Positions 2,659-5,472 of a stretch of 8,825 bases of DNA are shown here, piece after piece. A program made the translations under genes and the position numbers. This DNA comes from Sphingopyxis sp. GTDB lineage: Bacteria > Pseudomonadota > Alphaproteobacteria > Sphingomonadales > Sphingomonadaceae. The DNA is taken from assembly GCA_012035435.1 (NCBI GenBank), contig JAAUPH010000081.1, forward strand, positions 1 to 8,825. The letters run 5' to 3'. The notes beneath the pieces are model-generated. The model was not told the origin of the DNA. It saw only the letters and a program-made list of their open reading frames with translations, and searched no databases. Numbering within the stretch: position 1 is the first letter of the stretch; each line of letters begins with the position of its first letter.

Positions 2659-4318
2659 ATGACAGCTCCAATATTGCCGACCGCCGTCCAGCCCGACAGC
2701 GACAGTTTCAATGCGCGATCCGCGCACAACCGCGCCCTTCGGGATGATCTGTGGGCCGCGTCGCCGCCGCTGCACTGGGCGGCAATGAAAAGTCACGCGA
2801 ACGCCATGTCGCCCGCGGCAAGCTACTCCCGCGTGAGCGAGTGGAACGGTTGCTCGATCCCGGCTCGCCGTTGCTTGAAGTGGGCCAGCTCGCCGCGAAT
2901 GGCATGTATGAGGGCGACGTCCATGGCGCATCGCTCATCACCGGCATTGGCCGCGTGTCGGGGCGGCAGGTGATGATCGTCTGCAACGATGCGACGGTGA
3001 AAGGCGGCACTTATTACCCGCTGACCGTTAAAAAGCATTTGCGCGCTCAGGAAATCGCGCTCGAAAATCACCTTCCCTGCATCTATCTGGTCGACAGCGG
3101 CGGTGCCAACCTGCCCCATCAGGCCGAAGTCTTCCCAGATCGCGATCATTTTGGACGGATTTTCTTCAATCAGGCCAATATGTCCGCGCGCCGAATTCCT
3201 CAAATCGCCTGCGTCATGGGCAGTTGCACCGCGGGCGGTGCCTATGTCCCCGCCATGTCTGACGAAACGGTGATCGTCCGCAATCAAGGCACCATCTTCC
3301 TCGCCGGTCCCCCGCTGGTCAAGGCCGCGACGGGCGAGGAAATCAGCGCCGAAGATCTCGGCGGCGGCGATCTCCACGGCCGCAAATCGGGCGTGGTCGA
3401 TCATGTGGCAGAGAATGACGAACATGCGCTGACGATCGTCCGCGATATTGTCAGCCACATCGGCGGAACAATAGGGACAGTACCCTTTTTCGGAAACGCG
3501 GGTTCGAGTGGTAATGGCGATCCATCGAAAAAGGGGACTGTCCCTATTGTTCGAGACCCCCGCCCGCCCAAATACTCCGCCGAAGAGCTCTACGGCATCA
3601 TCCCCGAAGACGTGCGCGCGCCCTATGATGTCCGCGAGATCATCGCCCGCCTCGTCGACGCATCCGAATTTCACGAATTCAAGGCGCTTTACGGCAGCAC
3701 GCTCGTCTGCGGCTTCGCGCATATCTGGGGCATGCCCGTCGCCATCCTCGCCAACAATGGCGTGCTGTTCAGCGAGAGCGCGCAAAAGGGCGCACATTTC
3801 ATTCAGCTCGCGCAGCAACGCAGCATCCCCCTGCTGTTCCTCCAGAACATCAGCGGCTTCATGGTCGGCGGCAAATATGAAGCCGAAGGCATTGCAAAAC
3901 ATGGCGCCAAACTCGTCACCGCCGTCGCCACCGCGACCGTCCCCAAAATCACCGTGCTGATCGGCGGCAGCTTTGGCGCGGGCAATTACGGCATGTGCGG
4001 CCGCGCTATCAACCCCGCTTCCTCTTCACCTGGCCCAACGCGCGGATCAGCGTGATGGGCGGCGAACAGGCGGCGAGCGTGCTGGCAACGGTCCACCGCG
4101 ACGCCGAAAAATGGGACGAACGCGAAGCCGAAGCGTTCAAAGCCCCGATCCGCCAGAAATATGAGGATGAAGGCAACCCCTATTACGCCACAGCCCGCCT
4201 GTGGGATGACGGGATCATCGACCCGGCGCAGACCAGGGATGTGCTGGGACTGGCGCTGGGGGCGTGCGCAAATGCACCGTTGAGCGACGGGCCGGGCTTT
4301 GGGGTGTTCCGGATGTGA
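2659..4318 (+). pseudogene. liuB: methylcrotonyl-CoA carboxylase beta (carboxyltransferase) subunit, two frameshifts
   Basis: This is the subunit that moves carboxylate from biotin to 3-methylcrotonyl-CoA in leucine degradation. Repaired, it is 553 residues. The N-terminal carboxyltransferase half carries [20 protein letters not shown] and [16 protein letters not shown] (about 188-203). The C-terminal half carries [11 protein letters not shown] and the second glycine-rich motif [15 protein letters not shown], and the end is GPGFGVFRM, as in LiuB/MCCC2. The ATG at 2659 opens an N-terminus that aligns with LiuB. At 2756-2757 a C is missing (TGG GCC CGC GTC expected), and at 4007 a T is missing (GCT TAT expected, giving [20 protein letters not shown]). 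The longest uninterrupted frame is 2751-4055. An 87-base palindrome adds 29 residues (about 270-299) between the two domains. Geranyl-CoA carboxylase (AtuC) is a less likely alternative. Confidence 0.88.
3466..3552. repeat. REP-like palindrome inserted in frame within liuB
   Basis: Arms of 27 bases (3466-3492 and 3526-3552) are reverse complements except for one base (A at 3482). The loop is 33 bases. Each arm holds the shorter quasi-palindrome GGGACAGTCCC or its one-mismatch form. The whole unit is 87 bases, exactly 29 codons, and has no stop in the gene's frame. It encodes GTIGTVPFF on the left and KKGTVPIV on the right, joined by a Gly/Ser/Asn-rich linker. It falls in the variable linker between the two carboxyltransferase domains, just before [15 protein letters not shown]. 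The GGGAC/GTCCC core resembles bacterial REP elements mobilised by REP-associated tyrosine transposases; that link is an inference, as no transposase is present in the window. Confidence 0.85.
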
Positions 4319-4791: not shown

Positions 4792-4936
4792 AAATCCTCC
4801 CCGGAACGGGGAGGGCGACCAGCGAAGCTGGTGGAGGGACCGCGTGAGGGCGTGCGCTATGCTTCGGCCTCGCTCTACCCCGACAGCGGCCCCTCCGACC
4901 CCTGCGGGGCCACCTCCCCGTTCCGGGGAGGATTTT
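4792..4936 (+). repeat. left copy of the DUF559-flanking palindromic repeat
   Basis: The ends are perfect 23-base inverted repeats (4792-4814 and 4913-4935), beginning AAATCCTCCCC. Each end is itself a hairpin, CCTCCCC / GGGGAGG around a five-base loop. Inside are ACCAGC-GAA-GCTGGT (4818-4832) and CCCC-TGC-GGGG (4899-4909). Bases 4877-4939 match 5411-5473 of the right copy at 62 of 63 positions, in the same orientation, while the middle differs. The right end places GGAGGA six bases before the DUF559 start. Confidence 0.85.
4927..4932 (+). promoter_or_regulatory. repeat-derived Shine-Dalgarno of the DUF559 gene
   Basis: GGAGGA, part of the terminal arm of the left repeat, lies six bases before GTG 4939. 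It is a near-ideal ribosome binding site and fixes GTG as the start over the internal ATG at 5020. Confidence 0.65.
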
Positions 4937-4938
4937 GA

Positions 4939-5472
4939 GTGAGCGACAGGCGCAAGAAGCACTCCACTGTTGGTGCACCTGACGCCACCATCCGCCGCGC
5001 ACGCCAGTTCCGCAAAACAATGACGCTCCCGGAAGTGCTGCTGTGGCAGCAGCTCAAAAAGCGGCCCGGTGGCTATCAGTTCCGCAAACAGCACCCGGTC
5101 GGGTCCTATGTCCTTGACTTCGCCTGCATCCGGGCGCGGCTCGCCATTGAGGTTGATGGCGAAGCGCACAACCGCGGCGACCGGCCAGAGCGCGATGCAG
5201 CGCGCGACGCTTTTGTGCTGACACAAGGCTTCATAACGATTCGGATACCCGTAGCCGAGGTGCTCAACGACTTGGTCGGCGTCGTCCAGTTCATCACCGA
5301 ACAATGCCGCCAACGCGCCCACCCCAATCCTCCCCGGAACGGGGAGGTGGCGCGGCGAAGCCGTGACGGAGGGCCGGGTAAAGACATGCACTCCGCCGCG
5401 ACATTGCACGACCCCGACAGCGGCCCCTCCGACCCCTGCGGGGCCACCTCCCCGTCCCGGGGAGGATTTTGA
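4939..5472 (+). CDS. DUF559 (Vsr-like nuclease fold) protein with repeat-encoded tail
   Basis: This is a 177-residue protein. Residues 19-128 match the DUF559 pattern: RRARQFRKTMTLPEVLLWQQ (19-38), FRKQHPVGSYVLDFACIRAR (48-67), LAIEVDGEAH (68-77), then RDAARDAF and a closing GF-ITIRIPVAEVLNDL. The candidate PD-(D/E)XK-type acidic residues E32, D60, E71 and D73, plus H77, are all present, so the nuclease core appears intact. Relatives are related to very-short-patch-repair endonucleases, but their biological role is largely unsettled. Typical members end after about 120-130 residues. Here residues 130-177 (from NPPRNGEV to SRGGF) are encoded by the right repeat, whose final bases also give the TGA. 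The tail is low in complexity and probably unfolded. The GTG start depends on the left repeat's GGAGGA. No operon partner is evident. Confidence 0.85.
   Translation: MSDRRKKHSTVGAPDATIRRARQFRKTMTLPEVLLWQQLKKRPGGYQFRKQHPVGSYVLDFACIRARLAIEVDGEAHNRGDRPERDAARDAFVLTQGFITIRIPVAEVLNDLVGVVQFITEQCRQRAHPNPPRNGEVARRSRDGGPGKDMHSAATLHDPDSGPSDPCGATSPSRGGF
5326..5470 (+). repeat. right copy of the DUF559-flanking palindromic repeat
   Basis: Terminal arms 5326-5350 and 5444-5468 are 25-base inverted repeats with one mismatch, again each containing CCTCCCC / GGGGAGG. The copy has the same orientation as the left one. Its middle keeps a recognisable skeleton (GCGAAGC, then GGAGGG) but is otherwise diverged. 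It is read in frame by the DUF559 gene without an internal stop, and its terminal GGATTTTGA ends that gene. Confidence 0.85.

Follow-up and report, generated by a model that had tools for sequence, protein, structure and literature searches.

The window analysed here (the whole stretch of DNA, 8,825 nt) carries an 87-nt palindrome inside liuB, the gene for the beta subunit of methylcrotonyl-CoA carboxylase, which raises the questions of what this palindrome is, how it came to be read as protein within a conserved enzyme, and whether it serves any function there. In a database search, the product of the frame that contains it was most similar to P0001 (92 % identity), a protein annotated as methylcrotonyl-CoA carboxylase beta subunit. 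The features of the locus, in which REP and REPIN are putative assignments argued for below, are:

2751..4055, plus strand: open frame of liuB (methylcrotonyl-CoA carboxylase beta subunit) with the insert; the gene itself begins and ends in other frames
3459..3560, plus strand: liuB linker, 102 nt or 34 codons (native linkers mostly 42 nt or 14 codons)
3466..3492, plus strand: left arm, REP unit 1, with core GGGACAGTACCC starting at 3474
3493..3525, plus strand: 33-nt spacer of the REPIN (hairpin loop)
3526..3552, minus strand: right arm, inverted REP unit 2, with core GGGACTGTCCC starting at 3534, 60 nt past the first core
4792..4935, no strand assigned: family-D palindrome pair, of a family that also occurs within liuB linkers in other species
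5326..5469, no strand assigned: another family-D palindrome pair, at the opposite end of the DUF559 gene and overlapping the end of its open frame

A sequence-only reading of this DNA had described near-perfect 27-base arms with one mismatch around a 33-base loop, lying in the coding frame without a stop and with a length divisible by three. This description was accurate: the arms (3466–3492 and 3526–3552, 27 nt each) are complementary at 26 of 27 positions, the loop is 33 nt long, and the 87 nt (29 × 3) leave the frame open. Among the six possible frames, those open across the palindrome are the coding frame and two on the opposite strand. The long DNA hairpin that the same reading had anticipated was also recovered, since the single-stranded DNA fold reached −31.5 kcal/mol (z −8.9; 0 of 200 shuffles equally good), and RNA folding of positions 3446–3572 gave a z of −4.0 against shuffles. 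When the window was simulated 40 times under a first-order Markov model, allowing at most one mismatch in the arm and a loop of up to 60, the longest arm was 15, versus 27 observed; these simulations and the fold shuffles rule out a palindrome arisen by chance. Each arm has its own palindromic core, GGGACAGTACCC (with one mismatch) at 3474 and GGGACTGTCCC at 3534, so that the cores, of the GGGAC-GTCCC type, form inverted REPs 60 nt apart. The tetranucleotides GTAG and CGTC are absent from both arms on either strand, inspection by eye found no direct repeat beside 3466–3552 that could represent a target-site duplication, and an Rfam scan of the window gave no RNA family match at the gathering threshold.

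The insert occupies a variable linker situated between the conserved stretches ...RDIVSH and RPPKY, which aligns with the corresponding linker in the solved structure of an MCC beta subunit (3u9r), in agreement with the earlier suggestion of a tolerant linker between the two carboxyltransferase domains. We compared this position in 162 loci found by LiuB similarity (155 distinct loci after removal of seven duplicates), and all locus counts given here refer to the matches listed. The native linker was 42 nt long in 109 of the 162 loci and 48 nt long in 19, and the length was a multiple of three in all 162. The palindrome had been thought to add exactly 29 codons; because the linker of the window has 102 nt (34 codons) and the usual one 42 nt (14 codons), the net gain is instead 20 codons, with native residues absent next to the element. 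Outside the linker, length in an alignment of 283 LiuB rows varied by at most about 6 residues, with the exception of N-terminal extensions in less than 1 % of the rows. An AlphaFold model of the insert-bearing protein was poor (mean pLDDT 54) and was set aside.

Alignment of 120 related proteins revealed quite different inserts in the same linker, although this set was retrieved with an insert-bearing query and is uninformative on prevalence. In the DNA loci, the long linkers (24 of 162 among the matches listed, one of them a duplicate; 69–102 nt) had a mean inverted-repeat score of 13.9, reaching at least 10 in 22 of the 24, versus a mean of 4.7 for the 138 short linkers; native stretches of comparable length (93–99 nt, linker plus flank) scored 5–9. 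Element-like linkers occurred in 29 of the 155 distinct loci among the matches listed and belonged to five families seen in DNA: family E (SSEVE..STSLD, the commonest in liuB, 16 loci), family B (PAQAGA..PAFAG, 7 loci, counting L101, whose left half differs), family D (PPRNGEG, 3 loci), family A (GTVP, the kind found in the window, 2 loci) and family C (LSLSKG, 1 locus). Labels were assigned by regular expressions on the residues, and one locus (L028) labelled B was counted as native after correction by hand. Three further types (G, H and I) are known from protein alone. The single mobile family that the sequence-only reading implied is thus replaced by at least these five. That the extra residues are unusual was borne out, as the remaining 126 of the 155 distinct loci (among the matches listed) do not have an element-like linker.

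The insert is not peculiar to one strain, a possibility that alignment of LiuB was expected to settle: P0001 and P0062, known as protein alone, have the same insert type at the same place with 34-residue linkers, and the genome loci L144 (KIGTVPIF, in G428) and L145 (GTVPNGT, in G424) have family-A inserts with a single core. By flanking DNA, no genome locus among the matches listed is closer to the window than L144 (85.2 % identity). Otherwise, the residue kind of the window recurs only in database proteins such as P0001 and P0062, and no orthologue among the DNA loci examined carried the same residues without a palindrome.

On a DNA tree of the flanks of the 155 distinct loci, evaluated without label shuffles, the state of the linker changed at least 27 times, a count in which gains and losses are not separated. 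A protein tree (87 changes, 283 rows) was less suitable, the protein being too conserved, and was set aside in favour of the DNA tree. A common spacer is often found among members of one family (e.g., L099, L170 and L175), and part of the changes may therefore be loss or exchange and not new insertion. Even so close relatives as those with more than 90 % flank identity differed in linker state in 42 of 112 pairs among the matches listed; for example, L092 (family E) and L102 (family B) are 91.9 % identical in their flanks, and proteins P0032 (family A) and P0090 (family B) are 99 % identical outside the linker. These results indicate that the linker is the one part of LiuB that varies much in length and that unrelated palindrome families have landed in it repeatedly.

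The two REP cores of the window are nearly direct repeats of each other, and two pairs of proteins, P0002 (34 residues) with P0061 (14) and P0062 (34) with P0071 (14), differ by precisely the 20 residues that separate the cores. This suggests that the element may collapse between its cores to a single REP with the length of a native linker, probably as a later step; it is given here as a suggestion because the members of these pairs are not each other's nearest relatives.

Following the proposal to search for a REP-associated transposase, we examined the dispersal of the cores and their neighbourhood in related genomes. The core GGGACTGTCCC occurred 23, 18 and 12 times in G428, G415 and G424, versus 1, 2 and 2 occurrences of a reversed control, and 10 of 14 genomes of relatives contained at least one copy of the family-A core (up to 23). 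Likewise, among 45 genomes of one genus, 10 contained AGGGACTGTCCC, with 57 copies versus 3 control hits. Single and tandem REP forms exist in the relatives, and in G428 and G424 the core type of the LiuB linker is the type carried elsewhere in the genome. G428 and G411 each contain an open reading frame that matches Y1_Tnp (6e-9 and 2e-9, above the Pfam cut-off) and has family-A cores on either side, a RAYT-like gene flanked by the same REP core; with the NCBIfam model REP_Tyr_transpos these frames scored 77.7 and 67.6 bits, under the model cut-off of 80. The link between the element of the window and the family flanking these genes consists of about 15 shared core bases. In the genus surveyed, full RAYT genes were found in 2 of the 45 genomes and fragments in 4 more, and only 3 of the 10 core-bearing genomes had a RAYT gene or fragment.

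Searches with the whole arm or element were less productive: a 19-nt pattern of the arm with at most 2 mismatches found near-exact copies in none of 22 genomes, a 21-nt pattern with at most 3 mismatches had hits, most of them resembling chance matches, in 23 of the 396 genomes examined from the order, and the 87 nt had no match at E up to 1 in a plasmid search. The other families are also dispersed. The arm of family E had copies in 17 of 20 genomes, as many as 108 in one, and its reversed control gave no hit in any of the 20, although three genomes that carry the insert had only 2 (G465), 5 (G019) and 0 (G309) copies. For family C, 12 of 14 genomes were positive, with a maximum of 46 copies and no control hits, but the insert carrier G109 had only two copies, one being the LiuB copy itself. 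Family B was present in 14 of 15 genomes, reaching 58 copies, and its control counts were 0 in 13 genomes and 1–2 in the others. Y1_Tnp was detected in 3 of 18 genomes tested for these families and had no match in five genomes rich in family E, and RAYT enzymes therefore need not move all the families. In G428, a stretch closely like the REP of the window (AATAGGGACAGTCCCCCTTTTTC) lies inside a glmS-like gene (L265, near 956–980), where it encodes EKGGLSLFIS. We take these residues to resemble a normal motif of glmS, and the similarity may be due to chance, conversion or insertion.

Purifying selection acts on the gene whether or not it carries an insert, as indicated by a dN/dS of the flanks of 0.024–0.083 in 15 chosen pairs (0.055 for the window versus L144). 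The inserts themselves were compared in 12 loci (L004, L081, L085, L090, L092, L099, L150, L151, L156, L169, L170 and L175), yielding a pooled dN/dS of 0.17 for the inserted linkers of seven chosen equal-length pairs from families B and E, with none from family A, versus 0.074 for native linkers in 14 chosen pairs. Inserts that last are hence less constrained than everything else measured, yet not free, and the excess of silent changes in shared inserts is unexpected for wholly neutral DNA. This weak purifying selection on inserts that are kept makes a later use by the protein possible. Silent divergence in the shared inserts was 0.28, versus 0.34–0.64 in the flanks of the same pairs, a reduction that could reflect the hairpin, exchange or use.

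Several explanations compete for these observations. The frame breaks of the window in liuB, liuD and a LysR-type gene might lead one to see in the palindrome an assembly or sequencing artefact, with a foldback joined into the gene, which the sequence-only reading had itself named as a threat; we give this almost no credence for the insert, since an insert of this type, within a 34-residue linker, is present at the same place in P0001 and P0062, and both sides of the insert are in one frame. An MITE or another hairpin element unrelated to RAYT would fit arms that are nearly perfect from end to end and the lack of a RAYT match in 7 of the 10 relatives that bear the core. Nevertheless, the core is that of the repeats flanking two RAYT-like genes, relatives contain single and tandem REP forms, and no target duplication was seen by eye, so that we regard such an element as unlikely, if somewhat less so than the two alternatives that concern the position of the insert.

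One of these holds that the element is kept for a function of its hairpin or of its residues, such as slowing of ribosomes between the two carboxyltransferase halves or an adjustment of folding or assembly. The RNA fold 4 standard deviations better than shuffles, the use of the same linker again and again, and the figures for shared inserts (dN/dS and silent divergence) could be so explained. However, five families of differing sequence and length sit at one place, 126 of the 155 distinct loci among the matches listed, near relatives included, do without any insert, and the constraint is weaker than that of native linkers and flanks, in figures that do not include family A; on balance, retention for a function is improbable. 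We attach a similarly low probability to the other, in which linker DNA would be a preferred target, cut or entered by the mobilising enzymes at some sequence or structure. It would account for the repeated use of the linker by unrelated families, but the native residues before the element differ (LG-, LGG-, LGNLR- or LPPQPLG-), the native linkers have no common motif obvious by eye, and family E is not confined to liuB. In other sphingomonads it lies in frame in genes for a nitrite/sulphite reductase-like protein (L193), valyl-tRNA synthetase (L210) and the beta subunit of glycyl-tRNA synthetase (L189), with a possible further copy, of which we are unsure, in L214. A Pfam scan of ten open reading frames spanning palindrome copies found a domain in six; the copy was within the gene in L189, L193, L210 and L206 (LiuB itself), and outside the domain in L197. 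For family E, 13 of 27 other copies were spanned by an open reading frame, an overcount since these frames have no annotation.

We therefore consider it likely that the 87-nt palindrome is a REPIN of a RAYT-related REP family that sits in frame at a permissive linker of LiuB, probably without function when it arrived, and that its position results from a filter and not from targeting. The element would comprise two inverted REP units and a spacer, its REP family adjoining genes for RAYT-type (Y1 HUH) transposases in relatives, and a RAYT would have moved it as a single-stranded hairpin. It would have entered liuB in a phase that kept the frame open, to be read as about 20 extra residues that most likely had no function at arrival, and inserts that persist would then come under weak constraint. 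The hotspot would arise because in-frame insertions survive at the tolerant linker, without insertion being aimed at liuB, an interpretation to which the varying entry points and the in-frame copies of family E in other enzymes lead us. The central claim of the sequence-only reading, a mobile palindrome inside a protein gene, is thus retained and refined to an REP doublet at a tolerant linker, whereas its account of the gain in codons and the restriction to one strain or family are not. One loop of a conserved enzyme, with repeated arrivals or swaps of mobile palindromes and empty sites in relatives, constitutes a natural experiment in which one can measure how often small mobile DNA becomes protein, separate targeting from a selection filter, and ask whether protein segments derived from hairpins come under selection.

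REPINs are described as doublets of REPs that form hairpins and are associated with RAYT transposases (Bertels and Rainey, 2011, PMC3116915). Like these, the element of the window consists of two inverted units, each with a palindromic core, and an intervening spacer, all folding into one hairpin, and a core that shares about 15 bases with its own adjoins RAYT-like genes in two relatives; the element differs in lying inside the reading frame of liuB, since the REPINs of that description are mainly extragenic. An extragenic location is usual for REPs, although not exclusive, and Di Nocera (2013, PMC3733652) reported intragenic, in-frame GTAG and CGTC REPs in genes of several species, over half of them being dimers or groups that encode 20–30 residues. 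The targets reported there include tRNA synthetases of E. litoralis and S. alaskensis, and in two Xanthomonas different REPs occupy nearly the same position within recB. Those REPs are tagged by GTAG or CGTC, unlike the arms of the window. The word "carboxylase" does not occur in the main text of that article, whose supplementary gene list may include a liuB case, and its section on in-frame REPs does not describe five families in one linker across an order. In-frame REPs are thus already known, and the use of one protein loop by many families is the new part; in a literature search, the titles and abstract openings included none on REP insertions in methylcrotonyl-CoA carboxylase. The Rickettsia palindromic elements (RPE) are also palindromic mobile DNA found in frame inside proteins thought to be functional, according to PMC3733652, a situation shared by the palindrome of the window, albeit in a host group other than Rickettsia. 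Coding palindromes, perfect and up to 284 bp long, are reported in mitochondrial genes of Nematomorpha (PMC6649704); they too are inverted repeats inside protein-coding genes, but they are mitochondrial and perfect, and the abstract listing is silent on REP or RAYT.

Downstream of liuB, the window contains a DUF559 gene (4939–5472; its match is under the cut-off of the DUF559 model) between the two family-D palindrome pairs, an arrangement that resembles that of REPs and RAYT, except that the gene encodes a nuclease and not a transposase. The sample comprised 30 distinct DUF559 genes from sphingomonad loci and was biased because most loci were fetched around liuB. Within 260 nt, family-D cores were present to both sides of 21 of these genes, to a single side of 3 and to neither side of 6; for random 350-nt intervals of the same loci the figure was 3.4 %. 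In all loci together, 63 of 89 family-D cores lay within 260 nt of a DUF559 gene; two permuted palindromes used as controls had 34 and 7 occurrences. Independently of sequence, flanking inverted repeats with a score of at least 16 accompanied 26 of 29 DUF559 genes (the 30 minus one at a contig edge; three are on plasmids) and 0 of 300 random intervals from L001–L080. Among DUF559 genes from plasmids, a set that includes Deinococcus, Sinorhizobium and Azospirillum and overlaps with the 30 in L296–L298, 8 of 11, with Deinococcus and Sinorhizobium represented, exceeded all 60 shuffles and L300, L303 and L304 did not.

It is conceivable, and we propose it tentatively, that the LiuB linker receives insertions from two mechanistically distinct movers, namely RAYT-type REPINs (family A) and palindromes that travel with DUF559 genes (family D, and type H, which is alike and known from protein alone), with DUF559 as the transposase-like partner of a new REP-like system. 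We know of no mover for these bacterial palindromes, and DUF559 would, if this were borne out, be a named one; the DUF559-palindrome system would mainly occupy the space between genes and occasionally a protein linker. No paper listed in a literature search combined DUF559, palindrome, repeat and flank.

Inverted palindromic flanks also accompany the DUF559 genes of, among others, L053, L057, L112, L297, L299, L301, L302 and L306. In two plasmids, a DUF559 gene separates neighbours of the same pathway, lying between NAD(P) transhydrogenase genes in L297 (1498–1893) and between sufB and sufC in L299 (998–1408), which suggests mobility. In Sphingobium sp. RAC03 (L296), a DUF559 gene and one small hypothetical gene lie between liuB and the gene for the alpha subunit, an interval presumably occupied in the window by the DUF559 gene and an acyltransferase-like gene.

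Frame breaks in the window were located at ca. 0.87 kb in the LysR-type gene, at ca. 2.75 and 4.0 kb in liuB and at ca. 7.1 kb in liuD; they may result from sequencing error or decay, and relatives with an intact liuB exist. Beside the LysR-type gene, positions 58–170 contain intergenic palindromes of another kind seen by eye, of the TCTAGAGCG...CGCTCTA type, which look like a further family of dispersed repeats.
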